In this document: one piece after another, positions 13,048 through 44,132 of the stretch
Layout of the letters: each line of letters starts with the position of its first letter
Position numbering within the stretch: position 1 is the stretch's first letter
Assembly: GCF_000585335.1 (NCBI RefSeq)
Contig: NZ_KK073872.1
Span: 1,541,283-1,605,282 of the forward strand
From: Cloacibacillus evryensis DSM 19522
GTDB lineage: Bacteria; Synergistota; Synergistia; Synergistales; Synergistaceae
Length of the DNA: 64,000 bases
Reading direction: 5' to 3'
Made by a program: the position numbers and the translations under genes
Notes under the pieces: generated by a model
Databases searched by the model: none
What the model was told of the DNA's origin: nothing
The model's input: the letters and a program-made list of their open reading frames with translations, nothing else

Positions 13048-13397
13048 CGGAGTATCTAATCCAGCCGCCGGCGCACAGCGCGGGAGGAAAGTCCGGGCTC
13101 TACAGGGCAGGATGCAGGAGAAATTCCTGCGGGTGCGAACCCAGGGAAAGTGCCGCAGAAAAGCAAACCGCCGCTGATATCAGCGGTAAGGGTGAAAAGG
13201 CGGGGTAAGAGCCCACCGGCCGTCAGGGGAACCTGCGGGCCTGGCAAACCCCATCCGGAGCAAGGTCGAATAGGGAAGGTTGAGGCGGCCCGCTGACTTC
13301 CGGGTACGACCGCTCATTCCCGTATGCAAGTACGGGGTTAGATAAATGGCTGGAGGGAGCGTAAGCTCTTTACAAAACCCGGCTTATTGGGTGCTCT
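13048..13397 (+). ncRNA. rnpB: RNase P RNA (bacterial class A-like)
   Basis: The hallmark core GAGGAAAGTCCGGGCT is close to the 5' end, and ACAAAACCCGGCTTAT is close to the 3' end. These are the universally conserved P4-forming regions. A GGTAAGGGTGAAAAGG-like segment and AGATAAATGGC are also present. The terminal helix P1 is visible: GAGTATCTAAT (13050-13060) pairs over 11 bp with ATTGGGTGCTC (13386-13396), allowing G-U. The RNA is the catalytic part of RNase P, which matures tRNA 5' ends. Ends are estimated to within a few bases. Confidence 0.97.
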
Positions 13398-13400
13398 TTA

Positions 13401-13446
13401 TGACGCCGCACAGCTCTTTTGAGCGTGCGGCGTCATTATTTTTTTA
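13401..13446 (+). terminator. Intrinsic terminator of rnpB
   Basis: An 11-bp perfect stem (13401-13411 with 13425-13435), with an inner GCTC/GAGC extension and a TTTT loop, is followed by a T-rich run. Confidence 0.9.
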
Positions 13447-34599: not shown

Positions 34600-35838
34600 A
34601 TGGCGGGTTTTGTAAAAGAGGTGACGTCGAGGAGGAGCGCGCTGGAAGATATATCGAAGCGCCTTCTTTTTCCGTGGGAATATCCCGTCCGGGAGCTTCA
34701 GCTTGGAGAGGCGGTCGGGAAAAGAAGCGCCTGCGAAATAATAAACGACATGCCCTATCCTCCCTTCTGCCGAAGCCTGCGCGACGGCTACGCCGTCAGG
34801 CATGGCGACGCCGCGGGCGCGACGCCGGGGACGCCGCTCTTTCTGACGAAGAGGGGCGAGGTGCTTATGGGGCAGGATCCCGACTTCGGGATATCCTCCT
34901 CGGAGGCCGCTTTGATACCGACGGGCGGCATCCTGCCCGAGGGCGCGGACGCCGTCGTGATGCTTGAGGATACCGAGCTTGCAGGCGGATGGATAGAGGT
35001 GCGGCGCGGCGTGCAGGCCGGCGAGAACATCATATTTAAAGGCGAGGAGATCCCGCAGGGGGAGAGGTTGCTCGCGGCCGGCGGAATGGTGGATTTTCAG
35101 ACCATCGGCATGCTGGCGACCGCCGGCGTCTCGCGCCTCCCCGTGATCGGCCTGAAAATATCGATCCTTTCCACCGGCGACGAGATCGTCCCTGTGGAGA
35201 TGAAGGAACTGCCGCCGGGCTGTCTTCGTGACGTCAACGGCTGGAATCTCAAGGCGCTGCTTTCCCGTTACGGTTTTGAGGCTGAATACCGCGGCATCGC
35301 CAACGACGACGGAGCCGAATTTGAGCGGCGCTTTCATGAGGAGCTGGCGGGCTGCGACCTGCTCATCCTCAGCGGCGGCTCCTCGGTCGGCGTGCGCGAC
35401 CATTGCTCGGAGATGCTGGCTTCGCTGCCGGAGCCGGGGCTGCTCGTGCGCGGTTTGAACATCGTCCCGGGAAAGCCGACTCTGATCGCGGCGGACGCGG
35501 CGGCGAAAAAACTGGTCGTCAGCCTTCCGGGCCACCCGCTCTCCTGCCTGACCGTCGCTTTTACCGTGCTGCTGCCGCTGCTGCTGCGCCGCATCGGCTC
35601 GGAGAACGCCGTGTGCGGCACGCGGACGCGGCTGCCGCTTTCGCGCGACCTTGCGGCCCGCACGGGACCGGAAGAATTCGTCCCCTGCGTTCTTGGCGCG
35701 GACGGGAGCGTCGCGCCGGTCGCCGCCAAATCCGGCTACATTTCAGTATTGGCAAAAGCCTCCGGCCTCATCTGCGTGCCGGAGGACCGTGAAACTATCA
35801 GAGCGGGCGAAGATGCGGAGGTCTGGCTATGGCAGTAA
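34600..35838 (+). CDS. moeA: Molybdopterin molybdenumtransferase MoeA, first paralogue
   Basis: A 412-residue MoeA. DGYAVRHGD (substrate-side loop), PTGGILPEGADAVVMLEDT and the domain III segments STGDEIV and LSGGSSVGVRDH are typical, as is LPGHPLSCL. MoeA inserts molybdate into adenylylated molybdopterin. It follows the SPOR gene by 21 bp and overlaps the second moeA-like gene by 10 bp, so it heads a molybdenum cofactor operon joined to the end of the dcw cluster. Confidence 0.93.
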   Translation: MAGFVKEVTSRRSALEDISKRLLFPWEYPVRELQLGEAVGKRSACEIINDMPYPPFCRSLRDGYAVRHGDAAGATPGTPLFLTKRGEVLMGQDPDFGISSSEAALIPTGGILPEGADAVVMLEDTELAGGWIEVRRGVQAGENIIFKGEEIPQGERLLAAGGMVDFQTIGMLATAGVSRLPVIGLKISILSTGDEIVPVEMKELPPGCLRDVNGWNLKALLSRYGFEAEYRGIANDDGAEFERRFHEELAGCDLLILSGGSSVGVRDHCSEMLASLPEPGLLVRGLNIVPGKPTLIAADAAAKKLVVSLPGHPLSCLTVAFTVLLPLLLRRIGSENAVCGTRTRLPLSRDLAARTGPEEFVPCVLGADGSVAPVAAKSGYISVLAKASGLICVPEDRETIRAGEDAEVWLWQ

Positions 35839-37745
35839 AATTCCCTGAACATATAACGCTCGGCGAGGCTTGGGAGATACTATCCTCGGCTTTTGAGGGC
35901 TATTCGGAAAGGTTCGGCACAAGGCTTGAAATATCGGCGGCGCTCGGACATGTGCTGACGGAGGACATCACCGCCGCCCGCAACGTCCCGCACTACGCCG
36001 CCTCTGCTGTGGACGGCTACGCGCTGCGCGCGTCCGCGACGGCGGGGGCCACCGCAGCCACCCCGGCGCGGCTGCCGGAGGGCGGCTGGCAGTGGATGAA
36101 CACCGGCGCGGCGCTGCCTGACTGGGCCGACGCGGTGCTGATGGTGGAGGATTCGTCGCTAGAGGAGGGCGAACTTATCGTCTATAAAGCCCTCACGCCC
36201 TCCGCGAACGTGCGCCCCCTTGGCGAAGACGTCATGGCGGGACAGATAATCGCGCGGGAGGGAGAGCCTGTCACGCCGGCGCTGATCTCTCTCTTCCTCT
36301 GCGCCGGCATCGACGAGGTGCCGGTAAAGAGAAGGGCGAAGAGCCTCTTCATCCCTACGGGAGACGAGATAATCTCACGCGAGGAATGGCTCGCGCAGGA
36401 AAGCCAGCGTTCCGGCACGGTGGCGGAGAGCAATTCGCTCTTCATCGCCGCCTCATTTCGGAGGTGGGGCTTTGAAGTAGACGTCGCGCCGATACTTCCC
36501 GACGTGCCGCAGATACTTAAAGAATATGTTGAAAAAGGCGCGGCGGAATACGATCTCGTGCTTGTCGGCGCGGGTTCGGCGAAGGGAAGGCGCGACCACA
36601 CGATAGAGGTATTCAAGGAGCTCGGCGAGGTCCTCTTCCGCGGCGTGCGCATGAAACCGGGGCGTCCGGCGATGGCCGCGAAGATATCGGGCAAGCCGGT
36701 GATCTGCCTGCCCGGCTTCCCGATGTCGACGGCTGTGGCCCTCTGGTCGCTCGTTTATCCTCTGCTCAGGCAGTTTGCCGGAGAGCGCGGCCCTCTGTTG
36801 GAGCTGGCGCGCGAAGCCATCGGCGTGAAAAAGATCATAGAGACGCGGCTGCTCGTGCAGCATTCATCACCCGCCGGCATCGAGGAGTGGCTGCGCATGA
36901 AGACGGCGCTCGTCGGCGGCAGGCTATATTCGTGGGCGCTGACCTCCGGCGCGAGCGTCCTCTGGGCCCTCGCGGAATCGGACGGCATCGCGCTGCTTCC
37001 CGCCTCCGCGCTTGAATGCGAACGGGAAACGCCCGTAGAGGTCTGGATGACGCGTGAAGTAGACCTCGCGAAAAGGGTACTCTTCCAGGGGTCGGACGAT
37101 CCCGCCATACAACTGCTCGTAACGCCGATACGCCGCCGCGGCGCCGACTTCGCCGCGCGCGCCGTCGGCAGCATGGGCGGACTGGCCGCGCTCTCGCGCG
37201 GAGAATGCCACCTCGCCGCCGCGCACCTGCTGGACGAAAACACCGGCGGCTACAACGACGTCTTTATCGAACGCTTCTCAAAAGGACAGAAATGGAGGCG
37301 CATCCTCGTCTTTTACAGGACGCAGGGCATCATCGTCCAACGGGGAAACCCGCTGGGCATAAAAAATTTCCATGACCTGTGCGCGCAAGACATCGTCTTC
37401 TCCAACAGACAGCCGGGAGCGGGAACGAGGGTGCTCTTCGACCATCTGCTCAGGGAGGAGGGCGTCTCTCCTGATAAGATCAAAGGCTATTCCCAGATCT
37501 GCACAACTCACATGGAGGCGGCCAACCGCGTCTATACGGGGCTGGCAGGCGCCACGCTCGGCATAAAGTCCGCGGCGGACGCCCTCGGCCTCGACTTCAT
37601 ACCGATCACGGAGGAGCCGTACGAACTCGTCATCCCCGAGGAATACATGGAACATCCCGGAATCAGGGCCCTGTGCGACAGCCTTGAAGACGCGGAGTGG
37701 CGCGGAAAAGTCGACGAGATGGGTGGATACAGATGGCCGGATTGA
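35829..37745 (+). CDS. MoeA-family protein fused to a PBP-like (substrate-binding) domain
   Basis: A 638-residue protein. Residues 1 to about 400 are a second MoeA domain (SAVDGYALRAS, MNTGAALPDWADAVLMVED, PTGDEI, VGAGSAKGRRDH, CLPGFPMS). Residues from about 415 are a PBP-like domain resembling molybdate/LysR-type binding proteins, with LAAAHLLDENTGGYN, VQRGNPLGI, FSNRQPGAGTRVLFD and AGATLGIKSAA. There is no signal peptide, so the binding domain acts in the cytoplasm. It may sense or deliver molybdate, tungstate or another ligand; that is inference. The 3' end overlaps moaA. Confidence 0.9.
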   Translation: MAVKFPEHITLGEAWEILSSAFEGYSERFGTRLEISAALGHVLTEDITAARNVPHYAASAVDGYALRASATAGATAATPARLPEGGWQWMNTGAALPDWADAVLMVEDSSLEEGELIVYKALTPSANVRPLGEDVMAGQIIAREGEPVTPALISLFLCAGIDEVPVKRRAKSLFIPTGDEIISREEWLAQESQRSGTVAESNSLFIAASFRRWGFEVDVAPILPDVPQILKEYVEKGAAEYDLVLVGAGSAKGRRDHTIEVFKELGEVLFRGVRMKPGRPAMAAKISGKPVICLPGFPMSTAVALWSLVYPLLRQFAGERGPLLELAREAIGVKKIIETRLLVQHSSPAGIEEWLRMKTALVGGRLYSWALTSGASVLWALAESDGIALLPASALECERETPVEVWMTREVDLAKRVLFQGSDDPAIQLLVTPIRRRGADFAARAVGSMGGLAALSRGECHLAAAHLLDENTGGYNDVFIERFSKGQKWRRILVFYRTQGIIVQRGNPLGIKNFHDLCAQDIVFSNRQPGAGTRVLFDHLLREEGVSPDKIKGYSQICTTHMEAANRVYTGLAGATLGIKSAADALGLDFIPITEEPYELVIPEEYMEHPGIRALCDSLEDAEWRGKVDEMGGYRWPD

Positions 37746-38716
37746 GAGAGCTTAGAGACGACTACGGGCGAAAGCTGAACTACGTCCGTATATCGGTGAC
37801 CGATAGGTGCAACTATCGCTGCGCCTACTGTATGCCGCCGGAGGGTGTCAAATGCCTGAGCCACGCGGACATCCTGCGTTATGAGGATATAAAATTCCTC
37901 TGCCGCGTATTCGCCGGCATGGGTGTCGGCAAATTCCGCTTTACGGGCGGAGAGCCGCTTGTGCGCAAAGGACTTGTGCCATTCCTCAAAGAGCTGCACG
38001 GGGAACTGCCGGGAATAAAGACGGCGCTTACGACGAACGCCTCGCTGCTGGACGAATACTCCGCGCAGCTCGCGGAGGCGGGGATACACTCGCTCAACAT
38101 CAGCCTCGACACGCTGGACCCCGAAAAATTCGCGCGCATCACGAGGATCGGCACGATAGACAAGGTATTCGCGGGCATACGCGCCGCCAAGAGCGCCGGC
38201 ATCGGCAACATCAAGCTCAACGCCGTCCTCATCAGGGACTTCAACGACCATGAAATTGCGGAGATGCTTGCCTTTGCGCGGCGCGAGGGGCTCCTCCTGC
38301 GGCTCATCGAATTCATGCCGCTTCAGGACAGCGTATGGAACAAAGATTCCTTTATCGGCGGGGAGGAGATCCTTGCGATGCTCCCGGGAGGCGACGCCTG
38401 GAAAAAGTCCGCGGGAGGCGGGAACGACGACGGCCCGGCCCAATACTACTTCAATGAAAAGACGGGGGACACGATCGGGATAATCACGGCGGTCTCAAAC
38501 CATTTCTGCAAAAACTGCAACCGGCTTCGTGTCTCCGCGGAGGGGAATTTAAGGACCTGCCTCTTCAACCCCGATGAGACCGCCCTGAAAGAGCTGATCC
38601 AGAAAAGGGACGCGGCGGCTCTGCGGGAGACGATCCTGCGAAGCGTCCATGAGAAGCCGCGCTGCTGGAGCGACATAAACACCGGCAATCTTCAGATGTC
38701 GGGAATTGGAGGATAA
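37733..38716 (+). CDS. moaA: GTP 3',8-cyclase MoaA
   Basis: A 327-residue radical SAM enzyme. C26, C30 and C33 (CNYRCAYC) bind the SAM cluster. FCKNCNR plus a cysteine 13 residues later (LRTCLF) bind the second 4Fe-4S cluster that holds GTP. The protein ends in Gly-Gly, which is essential in the family. It performs the first step of molybdopterin synthesis. The ATG at 37733 places these motifs at normal distances; a GTG at 37697 would add twelve unlikely residues. Confidence 0.97.
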   Translation: MAGLRELRDDYGRKLNYVRISVTDRCNYRCAYCMPPEGVKCLSHADILRYEDIKFLCRVFAGMGVGKFRFTGGEPLVRKGLVPFLKELHGELPGIKTALTTNASLLDEYSAQLAEAGIHSLNISLDTLDPEKFARITRIGTIDKVFAGIRAAKSAGIGNIKLNAVLIRDFNDHEIAEMLAFARREGLLLRLIEFMPLQDSVWNKDSFIGGEEILAMLPGGDAWKKSAGGGNDDGPAQYYFNEKTGDTIGIITAVSNHFCKNCNRLRVSAEGNLRTCLFNPDETALKELIQKRDAAALRETILRSVHEKPRCWSDINTGNLQMSGIGG

Positions 38717-38719
38717 ACG

Positions 38720-39214
38720 ATGGGAGAATATACGCACTTCGACGCCGACGGCCGTCCGACGCTGGTGGACGTCAGCGGCAAGGCGGTCACGAAACGCACC
38801 GCCTGGGCCGAGGGATGGCTCTATCTGCCCGAGGGGATATACAGGACCGTCTCGCAGGGGGCGGTCAAAAAGGGAGACCCCTTTTCGATCGCGGAGCTCG
38901 GCGGCATCATGGGGGCGAAGAGGACGCCAGACCTCATACCGCTCTGCCACACCATCAGGCTTGACAACGTCAAAGTCAAATGTGACCTGGACCATGAAAA
39001 AAAAGCCCTCAGAATAACCTGCGAGGCCACGGCCTCAGAGGTGACCGGCGTGGAGATGGAGGCGCTCACGGGAGTCTCCGTCGCGGCGCTCACCTTCTAT
39101 GACATGTGCAAGGGGATAGACAAGGGCATGATAATCAAGGACATCCGCCTGCTGAAAAAGACCGGCGGCAAAAGCGGAGAGTGGAATGCCGCCGAAGGAG
39201 GCTATGCGAAATGA
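38720..39214 (+). CDS. moaC: Cyclic pyranopterin monophosphate synthase MoaC
   Basis: A 164-residue Moa[10 protein letters not shown] and [13 protein letters not shown] contain the conserved active-site residues, including the lysine near the end of the second motif. With MoaA it produces cyclic pyranopterin monophosphate. GGAGGATAAA precedes the ATG. The stop overlaps the next start as ATGA. Confidence 0.97.
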
Positions 39215-40035
39215 GAATATTGAGATTATGGGCCCCGTCGCTGATAGGCGACCATACCCTCTGCTACATCCACACCAACCGCGGGGGCAATACCTGCATA
39301 AACGACGTGGAGATCCCGGTCAAATACGCCCGAGCGGGCGAATCGCTTGACGGTGAAGAACACGCCGGCGCGATGACGATAGTCCTGCCGCCGGAGGCGG
39401 AGATAGACGGCGGCGGTTTTCTCGCCGTGGGGGATAACAACGAAACACTGCTGCGCTGGCATAGCGACAGCTCCTCGTTCAAAGTCTGCACGGCGGGATT
39501 CCTCGGCGTCTCCGAGCGCGCGGAAATATGGAGCCCGATCAGGACGGCGGTGCTCACCGTCAGCGACAAGGGCAGCCAGGGCCAGCGCGTCGATACGGCG
39601 GGGCCCGAGCTTGAGCGGTTCGCCTTCGCGCAGGGCTGCGTCACGGAAGAGAGGAAGATAGTCCCAGACGACAAAGAACAGATATGCGAGACCGTCCGCG
39701 AGTGGGCGGGGAAGGGAATAAACCTCATCCTCACGACGGGAGGGACCGGCCTTTCGCCGCGCGACAACACGCCCGAGGCGCTGCTCTCCGTCGCGGACAA
39801 GACCGTCCCCGGATTCGGCGAGATGATGCGCATCGAAACGCTCAAATACACGCCGCGCTCCTTCCTCACGCGCTCGGTGGCTGTGGTGAAAGACCGTTCG
39901 CTCGTCATCGCCTTCCCTGGCAGCAAACGCGGGGCGGGACAGTGCTTCGAGGCGATCACCGGCGGCCTGCGCCATGCCGTGGAGACGCTGACCGGCAGCG
40001 CGTCTGAATGCGGAAACAACCATCACGGGAAATAA
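39211..40035 (+). CDS. MogA/MoaB-domain protein with an unassigned N-terminal domain
   Basis: A 274-residue protein. Residues from about 106 are a MogA/MoaB molybdopterin adenylyltransferase-type domain: [38 protein letters not shown] and [17 protein letters not shown]. Residues 1-105 do not match a family I can name with confidence. They are beta-rich in appearance and end with a [14 protein letters not shown] stretch. Position after moaC suggests the domain belongs to cofactor synthesis, perhaps a reduced MOSC-like module. The ATG at 39211 has GAAGGAGGC upstream and an ATGA overlap with moaC. Confidence 0.88.
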
Positions 40036-40180: not shown

Positions 40181-40804
40181 TCATGAGTTTTTCATGACGA
40201 CTCCTTCCACGGCGTCGGCCACGTGTTCGCAGGCGTCCACACATTTTTCCAGGTAGATGTAGATCTCTCTCCAGGTGATGACCGCGATCGGGTCGCCGCA
40301 GGTCACGTGCAGCGTGTGCATGCTGGAGATAAAGAGCCGGTCGGCCTCCTCTTCCATCGTGTTGATATGCACTATATGGTCGTGAAGGCTTTTTGAATGT
40401 TTGAAATTCGCGAATTCCGTGATCATCTTCTTGGTCTCTTCGCAGCAGTTGATCGTCAGCCCCACCAGCGTCAGCGCGTCAGGCCTGATCTCACGGATAT
40501 TGTTGCAGTAGATGCGAAGCATGACGTCCTCTATCTTGTCGGTCATCTCGTCGATGTTCTGGCTCAACTGGATGATGTCCTCGCGCTCGATCGGGGTTAT
40601 GAAGGCCTTTGCCAGCACGTTGAGGAGCTCGTGCTTTTTTTCGTCGGCGGCGTGTTCGACCTTGTGGATATCCGCCAGCTTCTCTTCCATGAGGTCGGGG
40701 TTGAAATCGACCAGCGCTTTTTGCAGAAGGTGCGCGGCCTGACAGGCGAAATCGGTGCAGGTGATAAAGTTCTCGAAGTAAAAGGCGTCATTTTTCCGGG
40801 CCAT
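40181..40804 (-). CDS. DUF47 (PhoU-like) phosphate transport accessory protein
   Basis: A 207-residue helical protein of the DUF47 family, related to PhoU. It contains HKVEHAADEKKHELL, ITPIEREDIIQLSQNIDEMTDKIED and a C-terminal WREIYIYLEKCVDACEHVADAVE. These proteins accompany PiT transporters and probably modulate them. The transporter gene is directly upstream on the same strand, separated by 82 bp; in many genomes the order is the reverse. AGGAGAC lies 9 bp before the ATG. Confidence 0.93.
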   Translation of the reverse strand: MARKNDAFYFENFITCTDFACQAAHLLQKALVDFNPDLMEEKLADIHKVEHAADEKKHELLNVLAKAFITPIEREDIIQLSQNIDEMTDKIEDVMLRIYCNNIREIRPDALTLVGLTINCCEETKKMITEFANFKHSKSLHDHIVHINTMEEEADRLFISSMHTLHVTCGDPIAVITWREIYIYLEKCVDACEHVADAVEGVVMKNS

Positions 40805-40886: not shown

Positions 40887-41939
40887 TCAGAGAACGGCCA
40901 TGAACAGTTTTGCCATGGCGAAGCTGATGAGTCCGCAGCCGGGGAAGGTGAATATCCAAGTGAGCATCATGTCCGAAACCACGCCGAAGTTGATGGCTGA
41001 AAGGCGCTTGACCGACCCGACGCCCATGATCGCGCTGGTCTTGGTATGCGTCGTGGAGACGGGGATGCCGAAGAGGCTCGAGAGCAAAAGGCAGCCCGCC
41101 GCCGCGAGGTCCGCGGAAAAGCCCTGGTATTTTTCGAGCCGCACCATATCCATGCCGACCGCTCTGATGATATTCTCCCCGCCGACGCTCGTCCCCAGGG
41201 CCATCGTCGTGCTGCAGAGGACCATCAGCCATACTGGGATCGCCAGCCCGGATACGCTCGTTTGACCGTCGCAGAAGGCCATTCCGAGAAAGAGCACGCC
41301 GATGAATTTCTGCCCGTCCTGAGCGCCGTGCATGAAGCTCATCGCCGCCGCGCCGAAGATCTGCGCGTATTTAAAGAAGACGTTCGTCTTTCTTCTGTCC
41401 ATATCGGCGCAGACGACGGTCAGCAGTTTGCAGACGAGCCAGCCGCTCACGAAACCGAGAAACAGGCTCAAGCCAAGGCCGTAGAGGACCTTGACCCACT
41501 CGCTCATATTGATGCCGCCGATGCCGTCCTGAATGGCGATCGCCGCCCCCGAGAGGCCGGCGATCAGGCTGTGGCTTTCGCTGGTCGGTATCCCGAAGCG
41601 GGCGGCCCCGACACTGTATACGACGATGGAAAAAAGCGCCGCGCATAACGCGATCAGCGCCGCGCTTGTATTGCCTCCGAAATCGACCATGTTGCTGATA
41701 GTGGCCGCCACAGAGCTGTTGATCTGCGTCATCACCAGCACTCCGAGAAAATTGAATACGGCGCTGGTCAATATCGCGGAGCGGACGTTCATGCAGCGGG
41801 TCGTGACGCAGGTGGCGATCGCGTTGGGGGCGTCGGTCCAGCCGTTGACGAAGATGACGCCCAGCGTCAGCAGAACGGTGATCGTGAGAATGGGACTGGC
41901 GGCCATCTCACGAAAAAAGTAGAAAAGAGATACGTCCAT
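40887..41939 (-). CDS. pit: PiT-family inorganic phosphate transporter
   Basis: A 350-residue polytopic membrane protein with about ten transmembrane segments. The two PiT signature repeats are visible: NGWTDAPNAIATCV near the N-terminus, and MSFMHGAQDGQKFIGV in the second half. ALGTSVGGENIIRAVG and PVSTTHTKTSAIMGVG are also typical. It imports phosphate (probably metal-phosphate) using an ion gradient. An in-frame TTG at 41945 is an alternative start. A structured leader with a promoter and terminator precedes the gene. Confidence 0.95.
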   Translation of the reverse strand: MDVSLFYFFREMAASPILTITVLLTLGVIFVNGWTDAPNAIATCVTTRCMNVRSAILTSAVFNFLGVLVMTQINSSVAATISNMVDFGGNTSAALIALCAALFSIVVYSVGAARFGIPTSESHSLIAGLSGAAIAIQDGIGGINMSEWVKVLYGLGLSLFLGFVSGWLVCKLLTVVCADMDRRKTNVFFKYAQIFGAAAMSFMHGAQDGQKFIGVLFLGMAFCDGQTSVSGLAIPVWLMVLCSTTMALGTSVGGENIIRAVGMDMVRLEKYQGFSADLAAAGCLLLSSLFGIPVSTTHTKTSAIMGVGSVKRLSAINFGVVSDMMLTWIFTFPGCGLISFAMAKLFMAVL

Positions 41940-41983
41940 AAACAAAACACGCCCGCTTCCTTATACATTTTCATTGTCATTGC

Positions 41984-42022
41984 CAAACAAAAGAGCGGGA
42001 CCTCTTTCGACAGAAGTCCCGC
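41984..42022 (-). terminator. Intrinsic terminator inside the pit leader
   Basis: On the minus strand a 7-bp all-GC-rich stem (GCGGGAC with GTCCCGC) with a 14-nt loop is followed by TCTTTTGTTTGG. It lies between the pit promoter and the pit start codon, about 45 bp before the latter, as expected for an attenuator. Confidence 0.6.
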
Positions 42023-42133
42023 CCCACAATCATCAAAGACAGGGTATAAGATACCCTTCCAACGATCATCGCGCCGCGGATAAATAGAGACACATTCGTG
42101 CTCTATGACAGACTCCACCGTTTATCCCAGCGG
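42023..42133 (-). promoter_or_regulatory. Structured 5' leader upstream of pit, candidate riboswitch-like element
   Basis: Read on the minus strand, the predicted transcript contains three elements. First, a helix of GGATAAA (42127-42121) with TTTATCC (42084-42078). Second, within it, a hairpin TAGAG-CAC/GTG-CTCTA (42105-42085) with one bulged A. Third, a 7-bp hairpin AGGGTAT/ATACCCT (42057-42041). The last is flanked by two GATGAT direct repeats. It is followed by the terminator at 41984-42022. I could not match it to a known riboswitch class. Confidence 0.5.
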
Positions 42134-42139
42134 TTGTTT

Positions 42140-42168
42140 ACGATAGCACCAATTTAAAGCCCAGTCAA
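42140..42168 (-). promoter_or_regulatory. Promoter of the pit-DUF47 operon
   Basis: On the minus strand, TTGACT (42168-42163), a 17-bp spacer and TATCGT (42145-42140) form a plausible housekeeping promoter. The RNA start would be near 42133, giving a leader of about 190 nt. Confidence 0.55.
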
Positions 42169-42171
42169 TAG

Positions 42172-42213
42172 CGGCGGTCGGGACAGACGCGTAAAAATCT
42201 GCCCCGGCCGCCG
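42172..42213 (-). terminator. Terminator hairpin after the YjiL-like activator gene
   Basis: A 16-bp near-perfect stem (one C-A mismatch, one G-T pair) with a 10-nt loop lies just after the stop codon. The following minus-strand sequence has only a short T-rich stretch, so the hairpin itself is the main evidence. Confidence 0.65.
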
Positions 42214-42217
42214 TATC

Positions 42218-42976
42218 CTACATCCCCGCTCCGATCAGCGCCGCGCCGAGGGCGCCCGCGTACTGCGCGCGTTCGGGGATTATCACCCTCCGTTTAGTCT
42301 TTTTCTCTATCAGCCTGCCGAGCAGACTGTTCTGCGCGCAGCCGCCGGTGAAGCAGATGTCCCCATAGTCGGATATCCTTGATATCAGGTTCGCCGCGCG
42401 CTGGGCGACGGCGTCCAGCAGGCCGAGGCAGATGGATTCTTTCGCCACGCCTCGCGCGAGCAGGCTGACTACTTCCGACTCCGCGAAGACCGTGCACATG
42501 TTGTTTATCGGCTGAAAGGCGGTATCTTCCGAAACCGCGCAGAAGTCGGAGAGCGAGCAGCCGAGGTGCACCGCCATGTTCTGCAGGAAACGTCCCGTAC
42601 CGGCGGCGCATTTGTCGTTCATAAGGAAGTCGGTCACCTTTCCGTCCGGCCCGAGCGTTATCACCTTGGAATCCTGTCCTCCTATGTCAAGTACGGTGGA
42701 GGCCTGCGGCGTCAGGTAGTGCGCGCCGGCGGCGTGGCAGGTTATCTCTGTGACCCGCTTGTCGGCCTCGAAGACGTTCCGTCCGTAGCCTGTGGCCGTT
42801 ACGTGGAGGTCCTCGTCTTTTAAGATATGCCCGCGCCGCTTCACGTGAGCCAGCGCCTTTGCCGCGCTTTCGCCCGGCGTCCAGCCGGTGGGCGTGAGGT
42901 AGAATTCAAAGCCGCCGCCGTTCCAGAGGACGCCTTTGGTCGCCGTAGAGCCGATGTCTATCCCGATGCTGGCCAT
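42218..42976 (-). CDS. yjiL: ATP-dependent activator of the double-cubane-cluster protein (YjiL/HgdC-like)
   Basis: A 252-residue ASKHA-fold ATPase. GIDIGSTATKGVLW is the phosphate-1 loop, TVLDIGGQDSK the phosphate-2 loop. C123 (NDKCAAGTG) and C161 (MCTVFAES) correspond to the cysteines that hold the 4Fe-4S cluster at the dimer interface in 2-hydroxyglutaryl-CoA dehydratase activators. It would use ATP to pass a low-potential electron to the partner encoded just upstream. The ATG at 42976 is almost contiguous with the partner's stop, suggesting coupled translation; in-frame upstream codons are not protein-like. Confidence 0.92.
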   Translation of the reverse strand: MASIGIDIGSTATKGVLWNGGGFEFYLTPTGWTPGESAAKALAHVKRRGHILKDEDLHVTATGYGRNVFEADKRVTEITCHAAGAHYLTPQASTVLDIGGQDSKVITLGPDGKVTDFLMNDKCAAGTGRFLQNMAVHLGCSLSDFCAVSEDTAFQPINNMCTVFAESEVVSLLARGVAKESICLGLLDAVAQRAANLISRISDYGDICFTGGCAQNSLLGRLIEKKTKRRVIIPERAQYAGALGAALIGAGM

Positions 42977-42977
42977 T

Positions 42978-44132
42978 TTAGAGCATCTCCGTAAAGGCGC
43001 CGAATCTTGTGGCGAGCTGCCCAAGGTCGCCCTGCGAGTAATCTGTCTCCACGGCGATGTATGGAACACCGTCGTCAGCCAGGAACTGCCGTATGGAATA
43101 AGATTCTACGTTGTATGTGTGGCAGGCCTGGAGGATGACGTCGACGACGCCGTCCGCGCGGTATTTTTCCGCGTAGTGGCGCAGCAGCTCCAAACGGCCC
43201 GTGTTGGGGGACATTACGGAGCAGGGGATCGAGAGGTACTTTTCGGCCAGCGCGTCGAGCGGGGCGATCTCCTCGCTGACCCTGAAGTGCGAGCATTTGA
43301 GGTTGCCGCAGTTTTCAAAGCCGACGACGATCGAGGCGCAGTCGGGGGATTCAAGGACGTCGACGATCTTTTCGAGCGATTTGCCCATCGGGCAGCCGGT
43401 GATGAGGATGCGGTGGGCGGCGATGTCCTGGCGGCGCTGTCCGTTGATGTAGTTTTCCAGTATTTTATCGACAAGCTCGTTTACCTTCGCAATGCTCTTT
43501 TCGTAGTCGAAGGTGAACTTGAGGTAGTCCGACACGAGCATGATCTCTTTACCCGTTATGACGGCGTCCGGCAGCTTTGAGAGGTCATAGAAGCGCATCG
43601 CCGCGGCGTGCATCGCGTTTCTGAGCGATATGGAGGCCGCCAGCTTTTCGTCCGTTATCCTGGTCCCGCAGAGCTTTTCCAGCTCTTCTTTGAGCGCCGT
43701 TATCTCGTGTTTCCACAACTCCAGGCTTTTGGGGTGGCCGGCGCGCTGGGGCAGCTGCATCACATGGGTCGGGCGCAGCTTTCCGAGCAGCTCGTACATC
43801 TTCTTTTTGCCGTCGCAGGTGGTCTCCCCGACGACCATGTCGCAGAAGTGAAAGTACGGGCAGGTGTCGGTCAGGGCAAAGCCGTAGCTTGATTTTATCA
43901 GCGGGCAGAGGTTGCGCGGCAGATGTTTTTCCGCCGCCGCGATCGGCTTGTCGCTGGTGCTGCAAAGTGAGACGGAGATGCCGCCGGCGGCGTTTATCAG
44001 CTCCCACGGCGTGAAGGTGCAATAGGTGCCGATCACCGGACGTCCCGCCTCTTTCAGTTCTTTTATCGCGACGGGGCCGTTGTGGACGGCCTCACGCATC
44101 TCTTCAAATATTTTGTCTATGTCGTTATACAT
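42978..44132 (-). CDS. yjiM: Double-cubane-cluster protein, YjiM / 2-hydroxyacyl-CoA dehydratase-like
   Basis: A 384-residue member of the HgdB family that strongly resembles Escherichia coli YjiM. Shared stretches include VGTYCTF-like GTYCTFTPWELI, LPRNLCPLIKSSYGF, VVGETTCDGKKKMYE, RILITGCPMG and DVILQACHTYNVES. Relatives of this type bind an Fe8S9 double-cubane cluster and reduce small molecules such as acetylene in vitro when driven by the ATPase activator. The natural substrate is not known. It is not an obvious dehydratase because no second dehydratase subunit is present here. GGGGAGA precedes the ATG. Confidence 0.9.
   Translation of the reverse strand: MYNDIDKIFEEMREAVHNGPVAIKELKEAGRPVIGTYCTFTPWELINAAGGISVSLCSTSDKPIAAAEKHLPRNLCPLIKSSYGFALTDTCPYFHFCDMVVGETTCDGKKKMYELLGKLRPTHVMQLPQRAGHPKSLELWKHEITALKEELEKLCGTRITDEKLAASISLRNAMHAAAMRFYDLSKLPDAVITGKEIMLVSDYLKFTFDYEKSIAKVNELVDKILENYINGQRRQDIAAHRILITGCPMGKSLEKIVDVLESPDCASIVVGFENCGNLKCSHFRVSEEIAPLDALAEKYLSIPCSVMSPNTGRLELLRHYAEKYRADGVVDVILQACHTYNVESYSIRQFLADDGVPYIAVETDYSQGDLGQLATRFGAFTEML

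Follow-up and report, generated by a model that had tools for sequence, protein, structure and literature searches.

The window analyzed here is a 64,000-nucleotide stretch of the genome of Cloacibacillus evryensis DSM 19522 (3.49 Mb, single contig). The leader under study lies on its minus strand, at about 42135-41985, between a gene encoding a BadF-type ATPase and pit, whose product is a PiT/PHO4 family transporter with 6l85 as the nearest solved structure (cf. Table 1). A GC-rich hairpin without a T tract stands immediately upstream of the pit promoter and may mark where the preceding dehydratase-activase transcript ends. The molybdenum-cofactor cluster located on the opposite strand is convergent with pit, and no link between it and the pit leader was found. 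Elsewhere in the window, there is an RNase P RNA gene.

Table 1. Features of the pit leader and its surroundings in the window (positions count from the first letter of the window).
Feature	Position	Strand	Details
Promoter	42140-42168	-	-35 TTGACT 42168-42163, 17-nt spacer, -10 TATCGT 42145-42140
Conserved domain, candidate aptamer	42073-42135	-	P1, invariant bulge and P3; matches of covariance models R1/R2, covariation
P1, 5' strand	42122-42133	-	CCGC 42133-42130, TG bulge 42129-42128, GGATAA 42127-42122; covariation
One-sided bulge	42107-42119	-	GGUGGAGUCUGUC, near-invariant; putative ligand core and antiterminator strand
P3 hairpin	42084-42106	-	AUAGAG CAC - GAAU - GUG U CUCUAU; 7-8 of 9 pairs changed on both sides
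P1, 3' strand	42074-42083	-	UUAUCC GCGG; covariation
Spacer	42026-42072	-	GATGAT / AGGGTAT-ATACCCT hairpin; lineage-specific
Intrinsic terminator	41985-42025	-	left arm GGGGCGGGACUUCU 42025-42012, loop, right arm 42005-41992, T tract to 41985
pit, PiT/PHO4 family transporter	40887-41939	-	ATG at 41939; Pfam PF01384, E 5e-77
PhoU_div (DUF47) gene	40181-40804	-	second in operon; Pfam PF01865, E 5e-22
GC-rich hairpin	42171-42212	-	GGCGGCCGGGGCAGA/TCTGTCCCGACCGCC
Upstream operon	42218-44132	-	2-hydroxyglutaryl-CoA dehydratase D-component protein, then BadF-type ATPase
Molybdenum-cofactor cluster	35829-40035	+	MoeA fused to PBP-like domain (PF12727), MoaA, MoCF_biosynth protein, 164-aa ORF taken as MoaC
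RNase P RNA	13049-13401	+	bacterial class A, 268.7 bits

The sequence-only reading of this DNA had described a structured, attenuator-type leader with a promoter and, ahead of pit, a GC-rich terminator hairpin followed by a T-rich tail, and both elements were found where it had placed them. The enclosing helix that it proposed is also present, as GGATAA/TTATCC, and is extended outward by CCGC/GCGG, but what it had taken for a bulged hairpin inside is a continuous helix of P1 and P3 with a one-sided bulge of 13-15 nt. Similarly, the 7-bp hairpin between two GATGAT copies (AGGGTAT-CTT-ATACCCT) does exist and is stable on its own (z -4.4), but it belongs to a spacer that varies in both length and sequence among relatives and hence falls outside the conserved domain. 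The latter is about 63 nt long, and the predicted transcription start, near 42133, is the first base of P1. The minimum free energy of the 155-nt leader was -66.9, as compared with -45.6 ± 4.1 for shuffled sequences (z -5.2, 0 of 200 shuffles), a score to which terminator and spacer hairpin contribute a large part.

That the leader is real is settled by comparison, first with a homologous leader and then with a family of more than 100 loci showing strong covariation. The second leader precedes a pit operon in a Synergistaceae metagenome-assembled genome of a different genus (G020, locus L122); it is 76% identical to that of the window over 102 nt (E 6e-12), and its substitutions in the predicted P1 and P3 preserve pairing. 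The same pit was found in four of 61 genomes, those of the host and its relatives, and the G020 genome is the only one besides the window to carry the homologous leader. Close pit homologs from two other Synergistaceae genomes (L004-L006, 83-85% identical) have no switch and are preceded by plain promoters; their promoter region is common to one another, and in one of these genomes pit is present twice, on small contigs. A covariance model built from the two sequences (R1) retrieved only the two pit leaders from 188 Synergistota genomes, its matches in G089, G067 and G074 and at a second site of G020 being at chance level.

Outside Synergistota the picture is different. Scanning of 84,980 species genomes with the pattern GGTGGAGTCTGTCATNGN{8,30}CNAT returned at least 116 stretches, and at least about 83 of these places are supported as homologs by R1. 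Nearly all members come from Oscillospirales and other Clostridia, including Gemmiger, Fournierella, Pseudoflavonifractor, Agathobaculum, and many metagenome-assembled genomes, while further ones were found in Lachnoclostridium (a few Lachnospirales) and in relatives of Faecalitalea. In mismatch-tolerant scans, the Fournierella order had matches in 28 of 394 genomes, some few being judged to be due to chance, the Lachnoclostridium order in 4 of 275, and the Faecalitalea class in 4 of 277. The loci L172, L188 and L190 were rejected as chance matches, and a repeated pattern search of an order already sampled yielded little beyond chance matches with three mismatches. A covariance model search over 291 Clostridia genomes had few members among the matches listed. 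In total, the family exceeds 100 loci, all totals being lower bounds, and lies almost wholly outside Synergistota, whose share is tiny (2 of 188 genomes). The window PiT protein is 86% identical to that of G020 and 77-84% identical to Clostridial PiT proteins, and the window-type pit is missing from most related genomes; judging from these sequences, the pit operon and its switch probably moved jointly between Clostridia and Synergistota. No pit homologs were found in viral contigs.

The consensus of the family consists of P1, often with a UG bulge, the one-sided bulge N-GGUGGAGUCUGUC, and P3, with no unpaired base in the opposite strand. Covariation in homologous leaders, whose absence had been set beforehand as one of the outcomes that would refute the sequence-only reading, turned out to be strong. 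When 82 distinct members were aligned, 94.2% of the cells were paired, 16 of 19 pairs showed double-sided changes, and the covariation score was 0.383, as compared with 0.168 ± 0.007 for shuffled alignments (0 of 500); sliding of the partner strand made the score far lower. An independent set of 26 loci from outside the training data, two of them probably spurious, was 91% paired and scored 0.581 versus 0.229 for shuffled alignments (0 of 500). Both alignments were fitted to the model and are thus biased in its favor, yet given the effect size and the slid controls, the covariation can hardly be doubted. The earlier observation was therefore confirmed, and the phenomenon is more extensive than first described.

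Judging from the alignments, the bulge is the most conserved element of the RNA. Although its invariance in the first set is a product of the search pattern, it was near-invariant also when three mismatches were allowed, with a single position varied once in 19 members, and members with one altered bulge base are known from L170, L239 and L247. The two A-U pairs flanking it are nearly invariant as well, while the adjoining stem changes in a compensatory manner (AUAG to AUAA or ACCG) and the bulge stays constant. A hairpin within the bulge (P2, ACGG/CUGU), suggested by the minimum free energy fold, was rejected as unsupported: the second genome does not preserve it, and in other members its strand is for the most part invariant.

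In 98 of 102 members the core is preceded, at a distance of about 25 nt, by a promoter matching at least 9 of 12 positions, compared with about 11 of 102 in shuffled sequence; from this register, transcription is expected to start at or within P1. Of 103 members, 100 have an intrinsic terminator, which starts 46-180 nt past the core and whose left arm, in most cases GACAG-R-ACUUC or GACAGAAUCC, shows complementarity to the bulge. In the window, GGAGUC of the bulge (42116-42111) can pair with GACUUC of the left arm (42018-42013). Across the family, the mean pairing energy of bulge and left arm was -11.2 kcal/mol, as against -7.2 ± 1.0 for shuffled bulges (0 of 300) and -7.9 for 421 other terminators from the same loci (p 3e-23). 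When transcripts were folded up to a point before the right arm, the bulge paired with the left arm in 57 of 100 folds versus 12-18 for shuffled bulges, whereas full-length folds formed the terminator in 85 of 100; the window's own cut transcript gave just 4 bp between bulge and left arm. The left arm varies yet remains complementary, and the bulge is constant, as expected if the latter is the recognition core and the former serves only for capture.

These data are consistent with the following mechanism. Transcription is predicted to start at P1, and P1 and P3 make up one helix with its one-sided bulge. In the absence of ligand, the emerging left arm would be captured by the bulge, P1 would open, and the terminator would be blocked, so that the operon is ON; ligand binding would lock the bulge in the P1/bulge/P3 fold, allowing the left and right arms to pair and transcription to stop (OFF). 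In the window, such a switch would govern pit and the phoU_div gene. We infer the sign, termination in the presence of ligand, by analogy: the terminator is separate from the domain, and the sole link between them is pairing of the core with the left shoulder, as in c-di-AMP riboswitches (PMC9337991).

The genes that follow the RNA are diverse. Among 103 members, the first downstream gene encodes PiT in 26 cases, which makes it the largest single target class with about a quarter of members, followed by a membrane pyrophosphatase (21), a transporter of the CitMHS/ArsB superfamily (20), KtrB/TrkH (11), pyruvate kinase (6), a DUF1538 (UmpAB-type) antiporter (5), a Na+/Ca2+ antiporter (2), and singletons; no Mg2+ transporter class occurs among these targets. 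Added targets are the beta subunit of a Na+-translocating decarboxylase (L171), a Na/Pi symporter (L186), and a P-type cation ATPase (L251). KtrB, with the Ktr system as its nearest solved relative, is also downstream in the Faecalitalea relatives L249 and L250. One genome (G871) carries separate RNA copies before KtrB-KtrA and before a pyrophosphatase, and another (G767) carries three copies. Several features expected of a riboswitch are hence present: (i) a conserved, covarying domain in a 5' leader, (ii) an expression platform with two mutually exclusive pairings, as judged computationally, and (iii) a coherent set of downstream genes across taxa, mostly for ion transport and ion-coupled energy metabolism.

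The sequence-only reading had recognized no known class in the leader and would have been refuted by a match to an Rfam family, but a scan against Rfam 15 agreed with it: searched at gathering and permissive thresholds, the window leader and its relatives, 16 of them at the former and two at the latter, gave chance matches only. One of these, to EF3314_EF3315 (17.8 bits, gathering 100), was rejected, as its alignment misses the core. A description of the motif was also sought in the literature, including the surveys PMC11109978 and PMC8632094, and none was found in the texts searched; an unnamed supplementary entry is possible. The RNA family is thus likely new, i.e., previously uncatalogued.

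Several known classes deserve comparison. The Na+-I riboswitch (DUF1646 motif) is likewise a terminator-controlled 5' leader, found before Na+/K+/Ca2+ transporters and Na+-bioenergetic genes, e.g., oxaloacetate decarboxylase, so that the kinds of regulon overlap. However, it consists of P1 and P2 stems with conserved clusters at the P1 base and the P2 loop, aptamer and terminator stem overlap, and the switch is of the ON type (PMC9337991). The candidate does not have this two-stem architecture but a single continuous helix that carries a bulge of 13 nt, a separate terminator 46-180 nt downstream, and a predicted OFF response. The Li+-I / Na+-II class (nhaA-I motif), which senses alkali cations, shares with the candidate an intrinsic terminator in some members; its consensus resembles Na+-I, with P1/P2 and a linker, and terminator variants have been reported only from Deltaproteobacteria (PMC9646797). 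The orphan nqrA-II motif, described before a Na+-pump gene, has four stem-loops, is confined to Pasteurellaceae, and lies immediately 5' of the nqrA start codon (PMC11109978); both are orphan riboswitch candidates, but they do not resemble each other. The covariance model of Na+-I matched neither the window leader nor the 16 relatives at the gathering threshold nor the two at the permissive one, and those of nhaA-I, ydaO/yuaA, and the M-box / Mg2+ riboswitches had no match in the window leader or relatives. The negative result for nhaA-I is weaker than that for Na+-I, since rare Na+-II variants may fall outside the Rfam model. KtrAB-type K+ transporters are targets of c-di-AMP, and the ydaO/yuaA aptamer is much larger and pseudoknotted; pyruvate kinase and pyrophosphatase, as far as is known, do not rank among the classical targets of this riboswitch. 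The proposed platform logic of the candidate is nonetheless identical to that of the c-di-AMP riboswitch (ydaO/yuaA), in which pairing between the aptamer core and the left shoulder of a separate terminator is confined to the ligand-free state, giving an OFF switch (PMC9337991).

Taken as a whole, we consider it likely that the leader belongs to a new class of transcription-attenuating cis-regulatory RNAs, probably a riboswitch in which bulge and left arm form a two-state switch and the ligand reports alkali-cation status. That it should be an ordinary terminator accompanied by chance hairpins, without any regulation, is hardly conceivable: terminator-like sites are indeed frequent in the region (13 found vs 4.6 expected), but chance does not explain covariation, a promoter in register, and bulge/left-arm complementarity across about 100 loci. 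Very improbable, too, is a leader-peptide attenuator, in which the conserved GTG GAG TCT GTC would encode the first residues of a short peptide. An 83-codon GTG frame does span the window leader, but a second frame is comparably open (24 codons to a stop in the median, against 28 for the GTG frame), the third one stops after 4 codons, the conserved codons show nearly no variation, synonymous or not, in the mismatch-tolerant set, the hairpin length varies in all three registers, and conservation tracks base pairs rather than codons.

Another alternative is a leader read by a protein, i.e., an antiterminator or terminator protein or another RNA-binding regulator that binds the bulged helix and frees or blocks the left arm. 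The candidate aptamer is small for a riboswitch and could be read by a protein, a bulged helix with an invariant bulge being a typical protein site too, and the bulge is too conserved for a mere pairing strand. Yet the same core recurs across several orders and two phyla with differing downstream genes, no co-conserved regulator gene adjoins the RNA in the clusters examined, and the pairing logic suffices by itself, so that we regard a protein reader as rather unlikely. As for the ligand, the sequence-only reading had proposed phosphate or Mg2+ on account of pit, a proposal that found no support, since PiT is only one target class and the rest point to alkali-cation homeostasis. PiT being the commonest single target, together with PhoU_div and the Na/Pi symporter, and an OFF logic that suits a phosphate importer, would all agree with a riboswitch for phosphate or pyrophosphate, as would, more loosely, the membrane pyrophosphatase, which yields Pi from PPi; but phosphate supply is no direct function of KtrB/KtrA, the DUF1538 and Na+/Ca2+ antiporters, the decarboxylase beta subunit, the P-type ATPase, or pyruvate kinase, and we consider such a ligand unlikely.

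For a riboswitch of the kind preferred here, the varied ion pumps, antiporters, and K+ transporters suggest alkali-cation homeostasis rather than phosphate, and a ligand reporting K+ or Na+ status is the most likely one, this being the weakest step of the interpretation. Na+ is a possible ligand: it fits most gene identities, but several targets (Na+ pumps, antiporters) are expected to be ON at high Na+, and exporters would thus favor an ON switch. K+, which we hold to be possible with more reserve, fits the OFF logic for KtrB and for pyruvate kinases, which in this family carry the K+-dependent TKGPE motif; the case is weakened by the GNTVKA motif of the family's pyrophosphatases, which we take to be a signature of K+ independence. 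The remaining probability, apart from phosphate or PPi, is split among Mg2+/Ca2+, nucleotides, c-di-AMP, and a protein reader, and all these weights are our judgement rather than computed values. Somewhat speculatively, the RNA might sense K+ or the K+/Na+ balance directly and, once there is enough K+, turn off the uptake of K+ and phosphate as well as ion pumping and pyruvate kinase. We know of no direct K+ riboswitch, and if this doubtful proposal were true, it would be the first of its kind.

Whatever the ligand, this orphan riboswitch candidate, which is absent from Rfam 15, counts over 100 members and combines a clear consensus with a testable two-state platform. Its regulon would join phosphate uptake, K+ uptake, membrane pyrophosphatase, antiporters, a Na+-pumping decarboxylase, and pyruvate kinase under one signal. 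The identity of the ligand would reveal the ion or metabolite by which gut Clostridia set their membrane energetics and would aid in assigning functions to the CitMHS/ArsB-type and DUF1538 transporters, while the candidate domain itself may serve as a small portable sensor.

Some loci of the family have an unusual arrangement. In Faecalitalea cylindroides, two RNA copies face apart (L150, 1642-1688 on the minus strand and 1846-1901 on the plus strand), and the same pair is present in L238; one copy precedes KtrB, and the other is followed by no intact open reading frame but only by a brief MGWIYYIIQMLFDST remnant that may derive from a target now decayed. At L068, L140, L111 and L176, transposase-like or unrelated open reading frames either separate the RNA from PiT or follow the RNA immediately, suggesting that some switches may have been cut off from their gene by insertion.
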